The notes under the pieces: generated by a model
Told to the model about the DNA's origin: nothing
The model's database searches: none
What the model saw: only the letters and a program-made list of their open reading frames with translations
Made by a program: the position numbers and the translations under genes
Source of the DNA: Paracoccus tegillarcae
GTDB taxonomy: Bacteria; Pseudomonadota; Alphaproteobacteria; Rhodobacterales; Rhodobacteraceae
Reading direction: 5' to 3'
DNA length: 64,000 nucleotides
Assembly (NCBI RefSeq): GCF_002847305.1
Contig: NZ_CP025408.1
Span: forward strand, 1,162,001 to 1,226,000
Shown: piece after piece, positions 30,572 to 39,733 of the stretch
Layout of the letters: every line of letters begins with the position of its first letter
Position numbering within the stretch: the first letter of the stretch is position 1

Positions 30572-31690
30572 TCAGTCGGGGCCGCCCGCCTGTTGGCCGG
30601 TTTTCGCGGGCGCGAGGCCCAGATAATCCACCAGTTCGCGGGCCGCCGCCCGTCCGGCCCGATTGGCGCCCACGGTCGAGGCCGAGGGGCCGTAGCCCAC
30701 CAGATGCACGCGCGGATCGCGCTGAGCCTGCGTCGCCAGCCGGCCTGTCATGACGATGCCGCCGTTATCCTCGCGCAGTTGCAAGGGCGCGAGATGGTCC
30801 AGCGCGCTGCGAAACCCCGTGGCCCACAGGATCACATCCACCTGTTCCTCGCGCCCGTCCGGCCAGCGGATGCCGTGGGGGGTGATTTCCGAAAACATCG
30901 GCTGGCGGTCGAGGACGCCGCGCGCCTGCATCGCCCTGATCGCGGGGCTGCGGGGCAGCCCGGTGACCGACACGACCGAGCCGGGGACCAGCCCGCGGCG
31001 CACGCGTTTCTCGACCCGGGCGACGGCGGCGCGGCCGTCCTCGGCGGTGAATTTGGCATCCGAGAACACGGGCGGGCGGCGCGTGACCCAGATCGTGTCG
31101 GCCACCCGCGACACCTCATCCAGAAATTGCAGCGCCGAGATGCCGGCGCCCACGATCACCACGCGCTGGCCGGCGAATTCGTCGGGCGTCTGGTAGTCAT
31201 GGGTGTGCAACTGGCGGCCCTGAAACAGCTCGCGCCCCGGATAATAGGGGATTTGCGGCGCGTCCCATGTGCCGGTGCAGTTGATGATGCCGCGCACGGA
31301 AAACGTCTCGTGATCGGTCTCGACCCGCATCCGTTCGCCGCGATCACAGACCAGCCGCGTCGTGACGGGGCGGTAGACCGGCAGGTGAAAGCGGTCCTCG
31401 TAGGCCTGAAAATAGCAGGGCACGGCCTCGGCGGCGCGCACCTCGGACTGGCCGGCGTCCAGCACTTCGGCAAAACCCATCCCGGGCAGGTCGTGCATGC
31501 CGTTGATGGTTTTCATGGTCAGCGACGGCCAGCGGAACTGCCATGCGCCGCCGGGTCGGGGCGACTTGTCCAGCAGCAGAAAGCCCCTGCCGCCGGTCAG
31601 CCCCAGATTTTGCAGATGATAGCCGGTCGACAGCCCGGCCTGCCCGCCGCCAATCACCAGGATGTCGATCTTGTAGGCGAGCGCGTTCAT
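30572..31690 (-). CDS. flavin-containing monooxygenase-like NAD(P)/FAD oxidoreductase
   Basis: A 372-residue two-dinucleotide-domain flavoprotein. The FAD loop is GGGQAG at residues 14-19, the second nucleotide motif is IVGAGISALQF (near 155-165), and FQGRQLHTHDY resembles the FMO fingerprint FxGxxxHxxxY. The C-terminal ATGFRSAL is typical of the class. It may act on sulfur or nitrogen compounds or on thioredoxin-like partners, but no context indicates the substrate. The ATG at 31690 opens directly into the Rossmann fold. It is divergent from the PHA block. Confidence 0.82.
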   Translation of the reverse strand: MNALAYKIDILVIGGGQAGLSTGYHLQNLGLTGGRGFLLLDKSPRPGGAWQFRWPSLTMKTINGMHDLPGMGFAEVLDAGQSEVRAAEAVPCYFQAYEDRFHLPVYRPVTTRLVCDRGERMRVETDHETFSVRGIINCTGTWDAPQIPYYPGRELFQGRQLHTHDYQTPDEFAGQRVVIVGAGISALQFLDEVSRVADTIWVTRRPPVFSDAKFTAEDGRAAVARVEKRVRRGLVPGSVVSVTGLPRSPAIRAMQARGVLDRQPMFSEITPHGIRWPDGREEQVDVILWATGFRSALDHLAPLQLREDNGGIVMTGRLATQAQRDPRVHLVGYGPSASTVGANRAGRAAARELVDYLGLAPAKTGQQAGGPD

Positions 31691-32032
31691 TGGTTCTGGG
31701 GCACCGTGCTGTGGCATGCTCAGCCCAGAGTGACCCTGCTTTGCCAGCGTGGCAAGAGGCGGCCCGCCGCGTGTCGGGCGGTCAGCAGACGGTGTTGAAA
31801 CGGTGGGCGACGGTATCGATCACCTCGCCCGGCGGGCGCCGCCACCAGTTGCGGGTGCGCCACGAGGCTGCCCAAGCCGCGACGTGAGAAGTCAAATCTT
31901 GATCGCCCAGAAACAATTTCGAAACGGCGCGGAATGCGAATGTTGGTGAGCAACAGAGGGCACGGGACGGCGGTGCAGCCGAAACCGGACACCGACACCC
32001 GGCGCCATGCGAACAAACAAAGGAGAGAGACC
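31691..32032. other. 342-base divergent intergenic region between the monooxygenase and phasin genes
   Basis: It should hold the promoters of both genes; no clear -35/-10 pair was found by eye. It contains an inverted repeat TTGCCA-GCG-TGGCAA at 31741-31755, about 50 bases before the monooxygenase start. The phasin ribosome site AGGAGAGAG is at 32021-32029. A minus-strand frame of roughly 40 codons ending at 31782 (DTVAHRFNTVC at its end) looks protein-like but has only a TTG start and no ribosome site, so it is not called. Confidence 0.5.
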
Positions 32033-32407
32033 ATGACGACCACCACCACAAAGACCGAACAGACCAGCGTCCGCGCCAAGGTGAACGACGCACGCGAAAT
32101 CGCAGGCGATATCGGCGGCGCCGTGAGTGCTGGCAGCCGCGCCTATGTCAACGGCCTGATGGAACTGGGCCGGACCTTTGGCGGCTTTGGCCGCGAAGTT
32201 CTGAGCGAAGCCGGCGACCATGTCCGCGCCACGTTCAACGCCAAGTGCATGCGTGAAGTCGCCGAATTGCAGGCTTCGTATGTTCAGCATCGTGTGGAAA
32301 TGTCGGCGACCCATTCCAAGGAAATCGTCGATCTGGCCCGCGTCAAGACCGAGGCCGTGATCGCGCCGTTCGCCGATCTGGTGAAAAAAGACCAGAAAGC
32401 TGCCTGA
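32033..32407 (+). CDS. phaP: phasin family protein (PHA granule-associated)
   Basis: A 124-residue, mostly helical, alanine-rich protein of the phasin_2 family that coats polyhydroxyalkanoate granules. It starts MTTTTTKTEQTSVRAKV, has the amphipathic middle GRTFGGFGREVLSEAGDHVRATF in parts, and ends in a lysine-rich tail KKDQKAA. The ATG at 32033 follows AGGAGAGAG. An upstream extension of the frame has no ribosome site. It is 106 bases ahead of the acyl-CoA ligase, the first enzyme of the PHA block. Confidence 0.82.
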   Translation: MTTTTTKTEQTSVRAKVNDAREIAGDIGGAVSAGSRAYVNGLMELGRTFGGFGREVLSEAGDHVRATFNAKCMREVAELQASYVQHRVEMSATHSKEIVDLARVKTEAVIAPFADLVKKDQKAA

Positions 32408-32512
32408 TCTGGCTGCCTTCCCGGTCCGCCTGCGGGTGGGCCGGGACAAAGCGCGCGGCGGTGCCGTGCGGAACTCATGTCATGCCCCGGCACTGGGGCG
32501 GGAGGAATACCG

Positions 32513-34144
32513 ATGAACAAGCCATGGATTGCAACTTACGGCGAATCGATCCCGTCTGAGATCGACCCGGATATCTACCCATCCGTCCCGGCGATCTTTC
32601 AAACAGCGGTCGAGGCCTATGGCAACAAGCCGGCATTCGAGTGCTTTGGCCAGGTGATGACCTATTCGGAAATAGACGAGGCCGCATCGTCCTTTGCCGC
32701 CTGGTTGCAGAACAAGCATGGCGTCAAGCGCGGCGACCGCGTTGCGCTGATGTGCCCCAATATCTTTGCCTTCCCGATCGCCATGCACGGCATCATCCGT
32801 GCCGGCGCCGCGCAGGTGAACGTCAATCCGCTTTATACGCCGCGCGAACTGGCCCATCAGTTGAACGATGCGGGCGTCGAGACGATTGTCATCTTCAGCG
32901 GCTCGACCCCGGTTCTGGCCGAGATCATCGCCGACACCAACGTGAAGACCGTCGTCACCGTCGATCTGGGCGATGGTGCCGGGCTGGATATCCCCTCGCC
33001 CGCCGTTGATGAGCGGCTGACCGGCACCTTCCGCTTTGCCGATGTGCTGCGCGAAGGCGGCGGCCTGCCCTTCGAGCCTGTCGAGCTGACGGGCGAAGAT
33101 ATCCTGTTCTTCCAGTATACGGGCGGCACCACCGGCCTGAGCAAGGGCGCTGTCCTGACCCACCGGAACCTTGTCGCCAATACCGAGCAGATCAAGGCGA
33201 TGCTGCCCGAGGCGCAGGTGCCCGAAAAAGAGGTCGTGGTGATGGCGCTGCCGCTTTACCACATCTTTGGGCTGATGCTGATGGTGGCCTATTCGGCGAT
33301 TGGCGCAAAGTCGATCCTGATCCCGAACCCGCGTGACATGGACGGCTTTGTCGATGCCATCAAGGGTTCGAAATTCTCTGTCATCCCCGGCGTGAACACG
33401 CTGTTTCAGGGTCTGGCCATGCATCCGCGCTTTGGCGAGATCGACCTGTCGAACTACAAGCTGGCAATCGGCGGCGGTGCAGCCGTGATCCAGGCGACCT
33501 CGGAAAAGTGGCATGCGCTGACCGGGCATCACATCAAGGAAGGTTACGGCCTGTCCGAGACCTCGCCGCTGCTGAGCATCAACACGATGAACGTGACCGG
33601 ATTTACCGGCACCTGCGGGCTGCCCGTGCCATCGACCGAGGTCCGGCTGCTGGACGACGAGGGCAATGACGTGCCCGAAGGCGAGGCCGGCGAGATTTCG
33701 GCGCGCGGGCCACAGATCATGCGCGGCTATTGGAACAATGACGCGGCCAACAAGGCATCGTTCACCGAGGACGGGTTCTTCCGCACCGGCGATGTGGCCA
33801 TCTTCGTCGAAGGCGGTTTCGTCAAGATCGTCGACCGCAAGAAGGACATGGTCATCGTTTCGGGCTTTAACGTCTTTCCCAACGAGATCGAGGCCACGGT
33901 GACCGCCTGCGAAGGTGTCGCGGAATGTGCCTGCGTTGGTGTGCCGCACGAAAAGACCGGCGAGGCGCTGCGCGTCTTTGTGGTCAAGATCGACGGCGCG
34001 GATGTGACCGAAGACCAGATCATCGCGCACTGCCGCAAGTATCTTACCTCTTACAAGGTGCCCAAGCAGATCGTCTTTCTCGACGCGCTGCCCAAGTCGA
34101 ATGTCGGCAAGATCCTGCGCCGCGAACTGCGCGACAACGCATAA
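32513..34144 (+). CDS. long-chain fatty acid-CoA ligase (AMP-forming)
   Basis: A 543-residue adenylate-forming enzyme. The AMP-binding motif YTGGTTGLSKG lies at residues 202-212, the A5 motif is GYGLSETSPL, the A8 hinge is DRKKDMVIVSGFNVFP, and the catalytic lysine is in SNVGKILRREL. It matches FadD-type ligases that make acyl-CoA from free fatty acids. The ATG at 32513 follows GGGAGGAAT. Placed before a MaoC hydratase and phaC, it may feed fatty acids into polymer synthesis, besides ordinary beta-oxidation. Confidence 0.9.
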   Translation: MNKPWIATYGESIPSEIDPDIYPSVPAIFQTAVEAYGNKPAFECFGQVMTYSEIDEAASSFAAWLQNKHGVKRGDRVALMCPNIFAFPIAMHGIIRAGAAQVNVNPLYTPRELAHQLNDAGVETIVIFSGSTPVLAEIIADTNVKTVVTVDLGDGAGLDIPSPAVDERLTGTFRFADVLREGGGLPFEPVELTGEDILFFQYTGGTTGLSKGAVLTHRNLVANTEQIKAMLPEAQVPEKEVVVMALPLYHIFGLMLMVAYSAIGAKSILIPNPRDMDGFVDAIKGSKFSVIPGVNTLFQGLAMHPRFGEIDLSNYKLAIGGGAAVIQATSEKWHALTGHHIKEGYGLSETSPLLSINTMNVTGFTGTCGLPVPSTEVRLLDDEGNDVPEGEAGEISARGPQIMRGYWNNDAANKASFTEDGFFRTGDVAIFVEGGFVKIVDRKKDMVIVSGFNVFPNEIEATVTACEGVAECACVGVPHEKTGEALRVFVVKIDGADVTEDQIIAHCRKYLTSYKVPKQIVFLDALPKSNVGKILRRELRDNA

Positions 34145-34156
34145 GGAATGAGACCG

Positions 34157-34624
34157 ATGAAGACACCCAAAGGTTACAGCACCGCCACGCTTGGCGATCA
34201 TGTCGGCCATGATTTCGGGACCACGGACCCGATCACGGTTGGCCAGGACATGATCGACGGCTTCGCCGATATCACCGGCGACCACCAGTGGATCCACATC
34301 GATGTCGAACGGGCGAAAAAGGAAAGCCCGTTCGGCGGCCCCATCGCCCACGGCTTTCTGACGCTGTCGCTGCTGGCCGCCGCTGTTGGCGATGCGGGGA
34401 TCGTACCGACCGATGCCAAGGGCGTGGTGAATTACGGGATCGACAAGGTCCGGTTCCTGAACCCCGTCCCCGCCGGTGCGGCTGTGGTCAGCAACTTCAG
34501 GCTGACCAGCGTCGAAGACAAGGGCAAGGGCCGGCAATTGCTGCGGCTGGCCGCCGAAACGCGGCTGGACGACACCGGTGAGCCCGCAATCGTTGGCGAG
34601 GTCCTGGCCCTCGTCATCGGATAA
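34157..34624 (+). CDS. MaoC-family hydratase, probable (R)-specific enoyl-CoA hydratase
   Basis: A 155-residue hot-dog-fold hydratase. The catalytic Asp and His are in FADITGDHQWIHIDVERA, followed by the family block FGGPIAHGFLTLSLL. Such enzymes hydrate trans-2-enoyl-CoA to (R)-3-hydroxyacyl-CoA, the monomer used by PHA synthases (PhaJ role). The ATG at 34157 has AAGGA nine bases before it; the ATG at 34148 is less well spaced. It lies between the ligase and phaC, which supports the PhaJ-like role, although the subgroup also includes general MaoC proteins. Confidence 0.82.
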   Translation: MKTPKGYSTATLGDHVGHDFGTTDPITVGQDMIDGFADITGDHQWIHIDVERAKKESPFGGPIAHGFLTLSLLAAAVGDAGIVPTDAKGVVNYGIDKVRFLNPVPAGAAVVSNFRLTSVEDKGKGRQLLRLAAETRLDDTGEPAIVGEVLALVIG

Positions 34625-34653
34625 ATCGCAACCCGAAAAGGGAGGACAAGGAT

Positions 34654-36288
34654 ATGCCATCCAAGCGCATCGAGAACGCCACCGATCTGGCGATGTCTAT
34701 GACCAAGCTATACACCTCGGCGCTGACGCAGCCGATGAAGGCATGGTCGCATTCAATGACGGCCAGCCAGCAGATGCTGAGCAGCCTGACCGGCAATACC
34801 GCAATTGAACCTGAAAAGGGTGACAAGCGGTTCAGGGACCCGGTCTGGACGACGAACCCCGCCTATCATGCATTGATGCAGTCCTACCTTGCCTGGTCGA
34901 ACGCGATCACGGGCTGGGTCGACAGCCTTGACGCCGCGCCCCGCGACAAGCTGCGTGCGAAGCTGGCCACCAGCCTGATCACCGATGGGCTGGCGCCGAC
35001 AAACGCGATCCTGACCAACCCCGCCGCGATGCAAAAGACGCTGGAACAGGGCGGCAAGAACATTGTCAGCGGCTTGCAGCATTTCATCAGCGACATGATC
35101 CAGAATGGCGGCCTGCCATCGGTGGTCGACAAGTCCAAGTTCGAAGTGGGCGGCAATCTGGGCACGACGCCGGGCAAGGTCGTCTATTCCGAGGATCACC
35201 TTGAACTGATCCAATACACGCCAAAGACCGCGCAGGTCTGGTCGCGGCCGGTCTTTGTCGTGCCGCCGCAGATCAACAAATTCTATATCTGGGATCTGGC
35301 ACCCGACCGGTCGATTGTCGGCAATCTGCTCGATCAGGGCCATCAGGTCTTTATCGTCAGTTGGCGCAACCCGACCGAGGCCGAGGCTGACTGGGATCTC
35401 GACAGCTATGTCGCGGCGCTTGACCGCGCCACCGAGGTGGCCTGCGAGATCAGCGGATCGCCCGACCTCAACGTGGTCGGTGCCTGTTCGGGCGGGATCA
35501 CCTCTGCCCTGCTGGTCGCGCTGTGGGCCAGCCGGGGTTCCGATCGGGCCGCGTCGCTGACGCTGTTCGTGGCCATTCTGGATGTCGCCGGCGCCAAGGA
35601 TACCTCGATGGGGCTGTTTGCGAATTTCGAGACGCTGGAACTGGCGCGGATGTTTTCGCAATCGAAGGGCGTGCTTGAGGGCAAGGATCTGGAGCGCGCC
35701 TTTGCCTGGCTGCGGCCCAACGACCTGATCTGGTCCTATTGGGTCAACAATTACCTGATGGGCAAAGAGCCCTCGGCCTTTGACATCCTTTACTGGAACG
35801 CCGACACCACGAACCTGCCAGCCGCGCTGCATGGCGATCTGTTGGGAATGCTGGAAAGCGGCGGTTTCACCGGCGAGACCGGGCCGACCATCGACGGGCA
35901 GGCCCTGACGCTGAAACAGATCACCTGCGATGCCTATATCATGGGCGGTGAGACCGATCACATCACACCATGGGACGGCACCTATCTGACGCGCAACGGG
36001 CTGGGCGGAGATTCGACCTTTGTGCTTAGCCAGTCGGGTCATATCCAGTCGCTGATCAACCCGCCGGGCAATCCCAAGGCGCGTTACCAGACCAATGATG
36101 GCGATCACGACAGCCCGGAATCCTTTCTGGCTGGTGCCGAGACGCATGAGGGCACATGGTGGCCGCATGGGGTGGCATGGCTGGACGAACGCGGCGGACG
36201 CAAGGTCACGGCGAAGAAAACCTTGGGCTCGCGCAAGCACAAAGCCATATCTGATGCGCCGGGCACTTATGTCCGGGCGGCAAGCTGA
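34654..36288 (+). CDS. phaC: poly(3-hydroxyalkanoate) synthase, class II (medium-chain-length) type
   Basis: A 544-residue PHA polymerase. The lipase-like box GACSGG carries the nucleophile C278; the other catalytic residues are D435 (ETDHITPW) and H463 (SQSGHIQS). Long blocks match what I recall of Pseudomonas class II PhaC: VVPPQINKFY, FIVSWRNPT, DLNVVGACSGGIT, FAWLRPNDLIWSYWVNNYL, AFDILYWNADTTNLPAALHG, INPPGNPKARY and the terminal APGTYV. No PhaE partner gene is present, consistent with class I/II. The ATG at 34654 follows GGGAGGACAAGG. Directly downstream is a depolymerase of the matching medium-chain type. Confidence 0.93.
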   Translation: MPSKRIENATDLAMSMTKLYTSALTQPMKAWSHSMTASQQMLSSLTGNTAIEPEKGDKRFRDPVWTTNPAYHALMQSYLAWSNAITGWVDSLDAAPRDKLRAKLATSLITDGLAPTNAILTNPAAMQKTLEQGGKNIVSGLQHFISDMIQNGGLPSVVDKSKFEVGGNLGTTPGKVVYSEDHLELIQYTPKTAQVWSRPVFVVPPQINKFYIWDLAPDRSIVGNLLDQGHQVFIVSWRNPTEAEADWDLDSYVAALDRATEVACEISGSPDLNVVGACSGGITSALLVALWASRGSDRAASLTLFVAILDVAGAKDTSMGLFANFETLELARMFSQSKGVLEGKDLERAFAWLRPNDLIWSYWVNNYLMGKEPSAFDILYWNADTTNLPAALHGDLLGMLESGGFTGETGPTIDGQALTLKQITCDAYIMGGETDHITPWDGTYLTRNGLGGDSTFVLSQSGHIQSLINPPGNPKARYQTNDGDHDSPESFLAGAETHEGTWWPHGVAWLDERGGRKVTAKKTLGSRKHKAISDAPGTYVRAAS

Positions 36289-36307
36289 CCAGAAGGAGCC
36301 CCGCCAG

Positions 36308-37123
36308 ATGACCGATATCCGGACCCTCGTTCTTGATGGCCAAAAGGTGCGTGTTGCCCTGTTTGGACCTGCCGATGCCTCGCGTAACCTGCTGGTTTTC
36401 AACGGCATCGGCGCCAGTCTGGAAACGGTGGGACCCTTTGCCGAACGCTTTGCCGACACGCGGATCGTCACCTTTGACGTGCCGGGCGTGGGCGGCTCGC
36501 CCGTGCCGGCGCTGCCCTATCGGTTCACCTGGCTGGCGCGGCTGACCGCGCGCATCCTGGACAAGCTGGGGATCGATCAGGTCGATGTGTTCGGCGTCTC
36601 ATGGGGCGGGGCGGCGGCGCAGCAATTCGCGCGGGACTATCCCCATCGCGCGCTTAGCCTGACGCTGGCCGCGACCTCGGCGGGGTTCGTGATGGTGCCC
36701 GGCAATCTGCGCGTGATGCTGAAGATGGCGACGCCGAAACGTTACAGCGATCCCCAGCATATGCTGAAGATCGGGCCGGATATCTATGGCGGGCAGATGC
36801 GTGCCAACCCGCAGCTTTTGCGCGAACATGCGGCAACGCTGAAATCGGGATCGGGTCGCGGCTATCTGTATCAGCTGCTGGCCGGTGCCGGCTGGACCAG
36901 TTGGCTGTGGCTGCCACAGCTCAGGCTGCCGGTGCTGGTGATGATGGGCGAGGATGATCCGATCGTGCCGCTTGCCAATGGCCGGATCCTTGTCAATCGG
37001 CTGCCCAATGCGCGGCTGGAGGTCATGGATTGCGGGCATCTGTTCATCCTGACGGACCCGGCGGAAACGGCGGCCAAGGTCGAAGCGTTCATCCAATCCA
37101 CGCCCGTCGCAGAGATCGCATGA
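36308..37123 (+). CDS. phaZ: intracellular PHA depolymerase, medium-chain-length type (alpha/beta hydrolase)
   Basis: A 271-residue alpha/beta hydrolase. The nucleophile elbow is GVSWGG (S98), with the acid in GEDDPIVP (D216 or D217) and H244 in DCGHLFI. It closely follows Pseudomonas PhaZ as I recall it: LLVFNGIGASLE, FDVPGVGGSP, YRFTWLARLTARILD, VFGVSWGGAAAQQFARDYP and GLGWTS-like AGAGWTSWLW. It should mobilise stored medium-chain PHA. The ATG at 36308 follows AGAAGGAG, 19 bases after phaC, reproducing the phaC-phaZ order of pseudomonads. Confidence 0.9.
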   Translation: MTDIRTLVLDGQKVRVALFGPADASRNLLVFNGIGASLETVGPFAERFADTRIVTFDVPGVGGSPVPALPYRFTWLARLTARILDKLGIDQVDVFGVSWGGAAAQQFARDYPHRALSLTLAATSAGFVMVPGNLRVMLKMATPKRYSDPQHMLKIGPDIYGGQMRANPQLLREHAATLKSGSGRGYLYQLLAGAGWTSWLWLPQLRLPVLVMMGEDDPIVPLANGRILVNRLPNARLEVMDCGHLFILTDPAETAAKVEAFIQSTPVAEIA

Positions 37124-38358
37124 GCCAACCCGCCGAAACGCCCAAATCCGCGCTTGCCAGAAATCGCCGCATGGCCACGGCGGTGCTGGTCGTCATGGTG
37201 GTGATCTATCTCGCGACCCATCTGGTCAGCGATCCCGCAGGTCCCGTCCTGCTGATCCGCCGCATGGCCGAGGCGGGGATGATCGGCGGGCTGGCCGACT
37301 GGTTTGCCGTCGTCGCGCTGTTTCGTCACCCGCTTGGATTGCCGATCCCGCATACGGCATTGCTGCCAAAGAACCAGGCACGGGCCGCGCGCAATGTGGG
37401 CCGGTTCTTTGAGACGCATTTCCTTGAACCAGCCCAGCTGGAGGCGCGCATCCGGGCCATCGAGCCGTCCCGCCATCTGGTGACATGGATCGGCCAGCCG
37501 GGCAATGCAGAGGCGCTGGCGCGCGAATTGACCGGCCTTGTCGCCATGCTGCTGCGGCAGGAACCCTCGCCCCGCATGCTGGCAGGCGGGCGTCGGTTGC
37601 TGAAAAGCGAGGTCGCGCAGGCCGGGTCCGATCAGGCCATCGCCGGCGTCGTCGCGGATCTGGTCAAAACCGGCGTCAGGGGCGATGTCACCGACGAAAT
37701 CATCGCGATCATCCGCCGCGCCATCGACGAAAATCGCGGCATGGCGGTCGAGCTGGTGCAAGACAACAGCCGCTGGTGGATCGCCACACCGGTCGACCGG
37801 CGCGTGGCCGATCTGGTGGTCAGCGCGGTGCTGTCGATGCTGGATGATCTGCGCCGCGACAGCGCCTTGCGGAAGGAATTCGAAACGGCGCTGGACGGCA
37901 TGATCGAGACGCTTGAACAGGAGGGCGTGCTGACCCGCGCCGTCGCCGATGCCAGAGGCGAATTCCTTCGCTCTGGTGCGTTTGGCGCGGCCATTGCCGG
38001 CATCGCCCGCGAATTGCGCGACCGTCTGGGCAAACGGATCGCCAACGCGCCCGAGGCGCTTAGCGGACCACTGGCCCATCTGATCCGCGACACGGCGACG
38101 CGCGCACTCGCCACGCCCGAGGCCCGCGAAACGCTGGACCGTCGCCTTGCCGAACTGGCTGGCCGGGTGATCGGTGAAAGCCGCCCGCAGATCGCCGCCT
38201 ATGTCACGGACGTCATCGCCGGATGGGAGCCAGAGGAACTGAACACCCGCTTTGAGGAAGAGATCGGCCCGGATCTGCAATTCATCCGCATAAACGGTGC
38301 CCTGCTGGGCGCGTTGATCGGCGGCGGCTTGTTCGCATTCGAGACGATGATCGGGTGA
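37120..38358 (+). CDS. DUF445 domain-containing membrane-associated protein
   Basis: A 412-residue DUF445 protein. One membrane helix near the N-terminus (about 19-37, TAVLVVMVVIYLATHLV) is followed by the family block AEAGMIGGLADWFAVVALFRHPLGLPIPHTA and a long charged helical middle. A hydrophobic C-terminal segment (LLGALIGGGLFAFETMIG) closes it. The function of the family is unknown. Its start overlaps the phaZ stop (ATGA at 37120-37123), so it is translationally coupled to the depolymerase, though a PHA role is unproven. Confidence 0.88.
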   Translation: MSQPAETPKSALARNRRMATAVLVVMVVIYLATHLVSDPAGPVLLIRRMAEAGMIGGLADWFAVVALFRHPLGLPIPHTALLPKNQARAARNVGRFFETHFLEPAQLEARIRAIEPSRHLVTWIGQPGNAEALARELTGLVAMLLRQEPSPRMLAGGRRLLKSEVAQAGSDQAIAGVVADLVKTGVRGDVTDEIIAIIRRAIDENRGMAVELVQDNSRWWIATPVDRRVADLVVSAVLSMLDDLRRDSALRKEFETALDGMIETLEQEGVLTRAVADARGEFLRSGAFGAAIAGIARELRDRLGKRIANAPEALSGPLAHLIRDTATRALATPEARETLDRRLAELAGRVIGESRPQIAAYVTDVIAGWEPEELNTRFEEEIGPDLQFIRINGALLGALIGGGLFAFETMIG

Positions 38359-38362
38359 TCGC

Positions 38363-38389
38363 ATCCCCGGATGGCAGCGCGGTGGGGAT
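38363..38389. terminator. inverted repeat between convergent genes, possible bidirectional terminator
   Basis: ATCCCC (38363-38368) and GGGGAT (38384-38389) form a short stem in the 61-base gap between the DUF445 and AraC-family stop codons. Its position favours a terminator, but the stem is short and no T run is present. Confidence 0.3.
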
Positions 38390-38419
38390 CATCGACCGGC
38401 CTGCCCGCCAACTGGCACC

Positions 38420-39451
38420 TTAACCGGCAAACCCGAGGCTGTTCTGACGAAGGCTCAGGTCCTTTTTGCGGCAGGCCAGTGGCGATTCGTCATACCAGCG
38501 CTGAAAGGCGCGGCTGAACACGCTTTGATCGGCATAGCCCAGCGCCAGCGAGACCTCTGACAAGGGCAGCCGGGTCCGGGTGACCAGCGACAGGGCCCGC
38601 TCTCGCCGCCAGTCATCGACCAGATCGCGAAAGGTAAGCCCCTCTTCCTGCAGGCGACGCTGCAGGCTGCGCGGCTCTAGCCGCAGGCTATGCGCGACGG
38701 TTTCCAGCGAACAATCCCCGAATTCCATCTGCCGCGCGATCTCGCCGCGCGCCTCGTCGCTGATGCGGCCTGCGAATTCGTCCCGCGATGAGGTCAGGTA
38801 GCGGTCGATGATCGCGTGATAGGCCGCATCGGTCTGTTCGATCTTGCGATCCAGTGCGCTCTGATCGAAATAGAGCGCGTTCTGTTCGGCACCAAAGCGA
38901 ACCGGACAGCCAAAGCTTGCCTCTGCCGCGCGCCTGACACAGGCGTCCTGATCGCGAAAGGTGACCTCGATCAGATCAACCGGGGCCTTGCCGGCCTGCT
39001 CCAGCACGTTGCGCGCGACGGCGAGGGACAACAGCATATACTGGCGGGTACTGGTCCCGGTCAGCTGCACATTGAGAGACAGGGCCGCGATGCCGTCGGT
39101 TTCGTGCACGCCCGCGACAAGGCCATTGGTGTGGATGACCAGATTGCGGGCCATGGCCCTGATCGCGCCGCGCAGGTCGGGCTCCTCCTTGGTGACCAGC
39201 GCGACGGGCCCCAGAATTTCGAGGTGCTGATACACGGCCAGCCGCAGGCCCAGATCCGGCACGCCCCATTCTTCGGCGCAATGTTCGTAAAGCGCGCAAA
39301 TCGCGTCAAATGGCACGCGTTCGTCCGGCTTGCGCAACAGCTCGGATCGCAATCCGACCCTGCGCAATGCCGTTCCGACATCCGCCCCGACACTCTCGGC
39401 GACTTCTCTGATCCCTGACAAAGAACTCGCGCGGCTGAAATATTGCCCCAC
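38420..39451 (-). CDS. AraC-family transcriptional regulator (arabinose-binding-domain type)
   Basis: A 343-residue regulator. The N-terminal two thirds matches the AraC-associated ligand-binding domain of the OruR/ArgR-like group (LRRVGLRSELL, FDAICALYEHCAEEWGVPDLGLRL). The C-terminal helix-turn-helix pair spans about 235-335 (DCSLETVAHSLRLEPRSLQRRLQEEG and SLALGYADQSVFSRAFQRW). The start is taken as GTG at 39451, six bases after CAGGAGG; a longer frame to 39547 has no ribosome site. It is divergent from a cupin gene 282 bases away and may control that gene or the convergent PHA block. Confidence 0.82.
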   Translation of the reverse strand: MGQYFSRASSLSGIREVAESVGADVGTALRRVGLRSELLRKPDERVPFDAICALYEHCAEEWGVPDLGLRLAVYQHLEILGPVALVTKEEPDLRGAIRAMARNLVIHTNGLVAGVHETDGIAALSLNVQLTGTSTRQYMLLSLAVARNVLEQAGKAPVDLIEVTFRDQDACVRRAAEASFGCPVRFGAEQNALYFDQSALDRKIEQTDAAYHAIIDRYLTSSRDEFAGRISDEARGEIARQMEFGDCSLETVAHSLRLEPRSLQRRLQEEGLTFRDLVDDWRRERALSLVTRTRLPLSEVSLALGYADQSVFSRAFQRWYDESPLACRKKDLSLRQNSLGFAG

Positions 39452-39733
39452 CGCAGCCTCCTGTTTGGGGTGTTGCGCGCATATGGGCAAACGCCCCGTC
39501 AAGAGAGAGGCGAACCCCTGATGCGATTGTTGCCACCAGATTAGCACAGAAATTCAGTGCTGTGCGGATAATGCGGAGCGGGCGTCATGATCAGGCAGAG
39601 AACAGCGACCCGGTCGCGCTGTCATCGAAAGTCAAAATCCTGTCAGTCAGAGCTAATCGGGGAACGGCGCGGCCGCGTATTCATGGTTCACCCGATGATC
39701 GAACGAGATCTCAACCCTGAGGAGGAAACAGCC

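Follow-up and report, generated by a model that had tools for sequence, protein, structure and literature searches.

We examined a 64,000-nucleotide stretch of the Paracoccus tegillarcae genome (contig NZ_CP025408.1, positions 1,162,001 to 1,226,000; referred to here as the window) and found a row of six genes that probably constitutes a storage-polyester cluster which is self-contained and draws on the breakdown of fatty acids. The genes lie on the + strand in an operon-like arrangement and encode, in order, a phasin, an acyl-CoA ligase, a MaoC/PhaJ-type hydratase, the polyhydroxyalkanoate (PHA) synthase PhaC, the PHA depolymerase PhaZ and a membrane protein of the DUF445 family. Profile scores and trees indicated that the window PhaC is class II by descent and passes neither the class I nor the class II NCBI cut-off. 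The lineage to which it belongs is mainly rhodobacteral and, judging from the trees, split long ago from the class II-type lineages of Pseudomonas and Burkholderiales.

Class and descent of PhaC and PhaZ

The window PhaC was scored against the NCBIfam synthase models. It reached 615.9 bits for class II (TIGR01839), missing the cut-off of 855.4 by 239.5 bits, and it also missed the cut-offs for class I (TIGR01838; 498.9 bits, cut-off 622.65) and class III (TIGR01836; 100.3 bits, cut-off 365.3). The class II model thus outscored the class I model by 117 bits. As controls, the PhaC of P. aeruginosa PA7 gave 985.1 bits for class II and the host's own class I PhaC gave 676.6 bits for class I. A best match to class II that stayed under the cut-off was also observed for PhaC proteins of Palleronia (620.7), Ruegeria (640.6), Paraburkholderia atlantica (744.2), Cupriavidus campinensis (717.7) and Bradyrhizobium (665.2); the last three and PA7 were scanned without some N-terminal residues. 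Class labels were absent from the names of the 120 best PhaC relatives listed.

Two maximum-likelihood trees were built from PhaC sequences of class I and of the class II-like type only. The first contained 72 sequences, including 16 of 60 Pseudomonas loci and omitting one duplicate locus, and the second contained 75, obtained by removing ten sequences from the first and adding thirteen. In both trees the class II-like sequences, including that of the window, separated from eight class I sequences with a support of 100/100. Together with the presence of Gln, not Ala, at the position of C. necator residue 510, this split ruled out a class I enzyme, in agreement with the initial annotation. The window PhaC fell into a mainly rhodobacteral clade of 11 sequences in the first tree and 19 in the second (both 100/99), which bears out the under-described alphaproteobacterial lineage of class II-like enzymes that the same annotation had offered as one of two explanations. 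The 19-sequence clade included members from Palleronia, Ruegeria, Pukyongiella, Sedimentitalea, Marivivens, Amylibacter, Roseibium and metagenome-assembled genomes (MAGs) labelled Amaricoccus and Acetobacteraceae, and the closest named kin of the window PhaC in the 75-sequence tree were Palleronia and an Amaricoccus MAG. With two further sequences from the host family and one from Variovorax, the clade grew to 14 or 22 sequences (100/99).

The Pseudomonas-type sequences (18 in the first tree and 13 in the second) formed their own 100/100 clade, from which the window was excluded. Another 100/100 clade held the Burkholderiales sequences with one (first tree) or two (second tree) alphaproteobacterial ones, and the window PhaC lay outside it in the 75-sequence tree. 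When the lineage was forced to be sister to Pseudomonas, the approximately unbiased (AU) test gave p-AU values of 0.061 (72 sequences) and 0.259 (75 sequences). On these alignments, a distant sisterhood of the whole lineage with Pseudomonas is thus not rejected, and the branching order among the class II-like clades is not settled. A further AU test with 11 lineage and 18 Pseudomonas-type sequences gave p 5e-5 and was not used as evidence because three sequences belonging with the lineage had been shut out. In the part of PMC5944434 available to us, the PhaC of a mat clone and that of Rubrimonas cliftonensis were placed close to the class II cluster of Pseudomonas, and the authors guessed that class II was possibly derived from alphaproteobacterial PhaC.

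The adjacent phaC and phaZ genes are real, and PhaZ is a PHA depolymerase by family, as had been proposed. Its TIGR02240 score of 299.2 bits exceeded the cut-off of 250.6, and in a PhaZ tree of 57 chosen sequences, three generic alpha/beta hydrolases of the host genome stood apart on end branches over 7 and lacked the GVSWGG motif; these two results ruled out a generic hydrolase. The PhaZ tree repeated the main PhaC clades, and the window PhaZ was located in a 16-sequence clade (97/94) that was poorly resolved inside. The agreement of the main clades in the PhaC and PhaZ trees indicated that the pair was largely inherited together.

Substrate-pocket residues and chain length

Class II positions 481 and 484 correspond to Q465 and I468 of the window PhaC; five ungrouped sequences (L112, L114, L116, L122 and L123) were left out of the residue counts. 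We found Gln at 481 in the lineage (11/11) and in the Pseudomonas-type sequences (18/18), and Ala in class I (8/8). At 484, Ile or Val was present in the lineage (11/11), the Burkholderiales clade (14/14) and class I (7/8), and Leu in all 18 Pseudomonas-type sequences. Position 325 was Ala throughout the lineage (11/11) and Ser in the Pseudomonas type (18/18). Two other alphaproteobacterial class II-like PhaC groups departed from Pseudomonas and from the window lineage alike, combining Leu484 with Cys325 in all 13 of their sequences (L014, L071, L102-L104, L106-L111, L113 and L115).

Under C. necator numbering, position 253 (site B) was Trp in all 19 lineage sequences and Phe in the Pseudomonas type (13/13) and the Burkholderiales clade (13/13). 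Position 445, which aligns with Chromobacterium Tyr412, was Leu, Met or Ile in the lineage (19/19), Phe in the Pseudomonas type (13/13), and Phe (10/13) or Leu (3/13) in the Burkholderiales clade, with Leu in C. pinatubonensis PhaC2. The relevant part of PMC5509742 places the Chromobacterium counterparts of the two sites (Met225 and Tyr412 by our alignment) at the active-site cavity and describes the second as Tyr in classes I, III and IV, with class II preferring Phe; the lineage has neither Tyr nor Phe there. His at position 437 was common to the window and the Pseudomonas-type sequences but was also present in 3 of 9 class I sequences. The Thr expected at position 397 was not seen under the C. 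necator numbering used, and this position was not used.

As described in the sections of PMC4636328 available to us, C. pinatubonensis PhaC2 is class II by sequence, polymerises 3-hydroxybutyryl-CoA and not 3-hydroxyoctanoyl-CoA, and is proposed to owe its short-chain specificity to Ile484. Given this precedent, the Ile or Val at 484 makes a strict medium-chain specificity of the window lineage doubtful, and we predict a monomer range that is short to mixed short and medium rather than strictly medium chain. Of the initial reading of the pair as a class II medium-chain system, the kinship with the class II side stands, and the medium-chain polymer is in doubt.

It is unlikely that the row is a genuine class II system for medium-chain-length polymer like that of Pseudomonas. 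This reading is favoured by the 117-bit advantage of the class II model, the Gln481 common to the Pseudomonas type in place of the class I Ala, the fatty-acid-linked neighbours and the TIGR02240-type PhaZ, but the class II cut-off was missed widely by the window PhaC and passed by that of PA7, the lineage differs from the Pseudomonas type at 484 and at the Tyr412 position, and the class II-type relative with Ile484 makes short-chain polymer only (PMC4636328, in the same sections). A synthase that descends from class II but is restricted to short chains, resembling PhaC2 and used on fatty acids as the carbon source, is a somewhat unlikely alternative: Ile484, Leu at position 445 and a similar gene row are common to the window and PhaC2 (PMC4636328, as far as cited here). 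However, the two proteins are 45.7% identical and fall into different clades, the window PhaC has Trp rather than Phe at site B and Ala for Ser at 325, and the pertinent section of PMC8231600 reports medium-chain polymer for the Trinickia caryophylli enzymes, which it places in group C of the Burkholderia sensu lato synthases.

Association of DUF445 with the PhaC lineage

The last gene of the row is the sole DUF445 copy in the host genome. In the family sample, DUF445 was present in all 10 genomes with a close PhaC and in 3 of the 285 others (13/295 in total), and in the genus sample, it was present in 5 of 5 PhaC-bearing genomes and 1 of 120 others (6/125 in total, the sixth being G1002). The PhaC-bearing and DUF445-bearing family genomes were matched by identifier, and the identifiers agreed wherever both sets listed them. 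The corresponding chance figures were 2.6e-8 for the genus and 2.4e-16 for the family; they assume an independence of the genomes that does not hold, and in part they reflect the joint movement of the genes as a single row. In G139, however, DUF445 and the close PhaC were on different contigs. Among the three family genomes with DUF445 and no close PhaC, G115 contained a row made up of a truncated PhaC frame, PhaZ, DUF445 and a weak match to phasin, DUF445 adjoined a weak phasin match in G005, and it stood alone in the stretch fetched from G101.

Taken as a whole, the domain is not specific to PHA, since DUF445 was also found in 4 of 14 control genomes, including E. coli, none of which matched the class II synthase model. 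Gene rows were counted by similarity to the window proteins in nine lineage, 13 Burkholderiales and 60 Pseudomonas loci (L055 and L091 were omitted), and DUF445 was missing near PhaC from 6 of the 13 Burkholderiales and all 60 Pseudomonas loci; the link is therefore not universal. A first similarity count found DUF445 in 0 of 5 loci of the Bradyrhizobium-type group. A profile search with more flanking DNA revealed DUF445 close to PhaC in four host-family members (L165, L166, L191 and L192) and did not detect it in two Bradyrhizobium loci.

Hydrophobic stretches are visible by eye at both ends of the DUF445 protein, and its structure model is all-helical and weak (pTM, the predicted template modelling score, 0.38); the two features would fit a membrane protein. 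The association of DUF445 with the PhaC lineage is new here: in the one open-access library searched, neither the rhodobacteral lineage as such nor a link between DUF445 and PHA was found in print. We tentatively suggest, at somewhat less than even odds, that the DUF445 protein truly belongs to class II-like PHA systems as a component so far unrecognised, which might for instance tether granules or PhaZ to the membrane, and that the window lineage is at the same time a separate functional synthase type, whose monomer range and acyl pocket (Trp at site B, Ile or Val at 484, and Leu, Met or Ile at the position of Tyr412) are both distinct.

Distribution and the question of acquisition

A PhaC was counted as close at E <=1e-135 and a TIGR02240 match as strong at E <=1e-60, with the host included in each PhaC count. 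Close PhaC proteins were found in 5 of 125 genus genomes, 10 of 295 family genomes and 12 of 385 class genomes, and strong TIGR02240 matches in 9 of 292 order genomes, five of them exceeding the model cut-off. Forcing the four Paracoccus copies of the lineage together was rejected (p-AU 1e-52), and a fifth Paracoccus PhaC (G989) clustered with Burkholderiales in the 75-sequence tree. The tree positions of these copies point to repeated exchange between genera, and loss of old copies could have contributed to the patchiness.

The initial annotation had also considered that the pair was acquired from gammaproteobacteria. A recent acquisition from Pseudomonas or another gammaproteobacterium would accommodate the patchy presence in genus and family and the sisterhood that the AU tests did not reject, yet it is highly improbable. 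The window stood outside the Pseudomonas-type clade in both trees, with Palleronia and the Amaricoccus MAG as its nearest named kin; its gene row is unlike that of Pseudomonas and lacks the second phaC seen in 53 of 60 Pseudomonas loci; and the patchiness fits transfer within rhodobacteral lineages, given that a single clade of the four Paracoccus copies was rejected. Codon usage, which had been suggested as a check, also argues against a recent foreign origin. The six genes scored at the 69th to 95th percentile of a host background of the 194 longest non-overlapping frames (uncurated) from sixteen 20-kb stretches; by this measure their codon usage is native-like, with no sign of recent foreign origin.

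Related arrangements were observed in other genomes. In Paracoccus G989 (loci L164 on contig C70 and L173 on contig C111), window-type PhaZ and DUF445 genes lay on a contig other than that of the Burkholderiales-clade PhaC. In G1002 (L174, 7709-10872), a ligase gene was directly followed by DUF445, with no MaoC, PhaC or strong PhaZ match near, and this pair is apparently a remnant of the cluster. A Tsukamurella tyrosinosolvens plasmid (L122) carried ligase, PhaC, MaoC and PhaZ in a row, and its PhaC was 40% identical to that of the window.

Organization of the gene row

Table 1. The six genes of the row, with coordinates in the window.
Gene product	Position	Strand	Evidence
Phasin (Phasin_2 family), granule coat protein	32033..32407	+	Pfam PF09361, 31.6 bits (cut-off 24.9)
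Acyl-CoA ligase, FadD-like	32513..34144	+	AMP-binding, 307.4 bits
MaoC/PhaJ-type (R)-enoyl-CoA hydratase	34148..34624	+	PF01575, 85.3 bits
PhaC, class II-like PHA synthase	34654..36288	+	Cys278, Asp435, His463; profiles, trees, residues
PhaZ, intracellular PHA depolymerase, Pseudomonas type, GVSWGG	36308..37123	+	TIGR02240, 299.2 bits; tree
DUF445 membrane protein	37120..38358	+	PF04286, 251.7 bits; single copy; linkage and co-occurrence

All six frames are intact. The phasin and ligase genes are separated by about 105 nucleotides (nt), and the following gaps are 3 nt (ligase to MaoC), 29 nt (MaoC to PhaC) and 19 nt (PhaC to PhaZ); the phaZ stop overlaps the DUF445 start by 4 nt (ATGA). The phasin start was picked by its ribosome-binding site, a longer frame beginning at 31934, and the NCBIfam phasin_2 score of the protein was 22.6, below the cut-off of 99.7. 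A longer alternative ligase frame starts at 32477, and the best NCBIfam matches of the ligase were long-chain-fatty-acid-CoA ligase models (655.5 bits, below the cut-off of 869). The MaoC/PhaJ gene has a possible alternative start at 34157. Its closest solved structure was Rv0130 (101.9 bits), a structure named as an (R)-specific enoyl-CoA hydratase scored 23.2 bits, and its sequence contains Asp-x4-His, which we take to be the hydratase motif.

Convergent with the DUF445 gene is a gene for an AraC-type regulator (38420-39547, - strand), which was QhpR-like with 198 bits against a cut-off of 250. Relatives of this regulator were found in the same place in L161 (295 bits) and about 4 kb beyond DUF445 in L162 (407 bits), and the regulator may belong to the cluster. 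These were the sole flanking matches shared with L161-L164: for the remaining seven proteins that flank the row in the window, there was no match in the 20 kb fetched around L161-L163, which are genus-mates with the row, or around L164.

Other PHA genes of the host

The host genome searched (Paracoccus tegillarcae, 3.95 Mb, four contigs) contained three PhaC genes, namely a class I locus copy, a copy on contig C2 and the window gene. The class I locus (C1:36000-52000) encodes PhaC (676.6 bits, cut-off 622.65), PhaR (160.2, cut-off 109.45), a TIGR01849 depolymerase (540.2, cut-off 300.75) and a phasin-like frame without an NCBIfam match. The C2 copy (G000:C2:1356-2840; L127), on a 92.5-kb contig, clustered with class I in both PhaC trees. 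Its protein was 95.8% identical to the PhaC of the Paracoccus zhejiangensis plasmid pPZ03, its neighbours were lactate-utilisation and pyruvate-dehydrogenase-type genes, and across 89% of the 12-kb stretch used in the search the DNA was 95.2% identical.

With two other PhaC genes in the host, the window row might be a decayed or silent copy kept beside a working class I system, and decay was indeed seen elsewhere, as a cut PhaC frame in G115 and a ligase-DUF445 remnant in G1002. We consider this very unlikely, as the window row has six intact frames, the catalytic residues of its PhaC are retained and its codon usage is native-like.

Proposed function of the gene row

The self-contained polyester cluster that we favour would operate as follows, with enzyme activities and flux that we infer from gene families and their order. 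The ligase would activate fatty acids, or re-activate hydroxy acids freed by PhaZ, and beta-oxidation enzymes coded elsewhere would supply enoyl-CoA. The MaoC/PhaJ hydratase would convert enoyl-CoA to (R)-3-hydroxyacyl-CoA, which the class II-like PhaC would polymerise via Cys278. The phasin would coat the granule and PhaZ would free the monomers, with the DUF445 protein as a possible unrecognised membrane partner of the PHA system. We also infer that the six genes are co-transcribed.

Several points weigh against this interpretation. The ligase and MaoC families are broad, and the substrate is not readable from them. The pocket is mixed, with the class II-like Gln481, the class I-like Ile484 and the lineage-specific Trp and Ala, and therefore the chain length is not readable from sequence or class. 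The Burkholderiales relatives are short-chain in one case (PMC4636328) yet medium-chain for T. caryophylli (PMC8231600), in the sections already referred to. No sigma-70-like promoter site was found in 31600-38520 (shuffles 1.3), so transcription as a single unit is putative; terminator-like sites in this region numbered 7, as against 5.4 in shuffles (standard deviation 2.3). Expression or polymer data for lineage members were not found in the portions of the literature consulted.

Polymer type is commonly predicted from the class of the synthase, and this lineage, class II by descent yet class I-like at a residue linked to chain length, lends itself to testing which residues determine that length. 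The row would also be a small PHA module tied to fatty acids in bacteria for which class I systems are the usual description, and the link to PhaC gives DUF445, a domain of unknown function, a role that can be tested.

Comparison with known systems

Near PhaC in the nine lineage relatives, we found MaoC, PhaZ and DUF445 in 9/9 each, phasin in 6/9 and ligase in 5/9; four of the nine loci hold less than 4.5 kb on a side. The 13 Burkholderiales loci contained MaoC and PhaZ in all cases, ligase in nine, DUF445 in seven and phasin, by similarity to the window phasin, in none. In the 60 Pseudomonas loci, PhaZ was near PhaC in 59, and MaoC, ligase, DUF445 and phasin in none. Two PhaC genes flanked PhaZ in 53 of the 60 Pseudomonas loci; a single PhaC was present in the lineage (6) and Burkholderiales (13) loci checked.

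The phaC2 cluster of Cupriavidus pinatubonensis JMP134 resembles the window in three respects: its one class II-type PhaC shares a row with MaoC/PhaJ, phasin and PhaZ, the genome has a class I system at another place, and position 484 is Ile. The sections of PMC4636328 at hand describe co-transcription of fadE-phaJ-phaC2-phaP-phaZ and, on octanoate, a phaC2 level some 240-fold above that of phaC1. We compared the window with the CHARACTERISED relative, which was the one genome among 60 from the genus of C. lacunae to match a published phaC2 primer of C. pinatubonensis exactly. Six of 13 primer strings were present in a 3-kb piece, and the order fadE-phaJ-phaC2-phaP-phaZ was read from its frames; this order and the PhaC2 length of 579 residues agree with those parts of PMC4636328. 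The CHARACTERISED relative may be a strain other than that of the paper because the phaC2 position differs. Unlike the window, the JMP134 cluster has FadE and not a ligase at its head, and the 14 kb fetched from the primer-matching genome contained no DUF445 match to the window protein. Moreover, its PhaC2 belongs to a different clade, with the sequence identity given above and Phe, not Trp, at site B.

The group C PhaC of Burkholderia sensu lato is likewise class II-like and near phaZ, phaP and maoC in the portion of PMC8231600 used here. The Burkholderiales loci counted above, with ligase near PhaC in 9/13 and DUF445 in 7/13, are presumed to belong to group C. In contrast to the window, group C is betaproteobacterial and forms its own 100/100 clade; the string 'duf' occurs 0 times in the main text of the review.

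The Pseudomonas class II phaC1-phaZ-phaC2 locus is similar to the window in that PhaC adjoins PhaZ, position 481 is Gln and the class II hidden Markov model is the best match. It differs in its second phaC, Leu484 and Ser325, whereas the window row has a single phaC, Ile484 and Ala325. The rhodobacteral class I system of phaC, PhaR and TIGR01849 depolymerase also serves PHA storage and is present in the same genome (L126); its PhaC, however, passes the class I cut-off and is 33% identical to the window PhaC, and its depolymerase is of another family.

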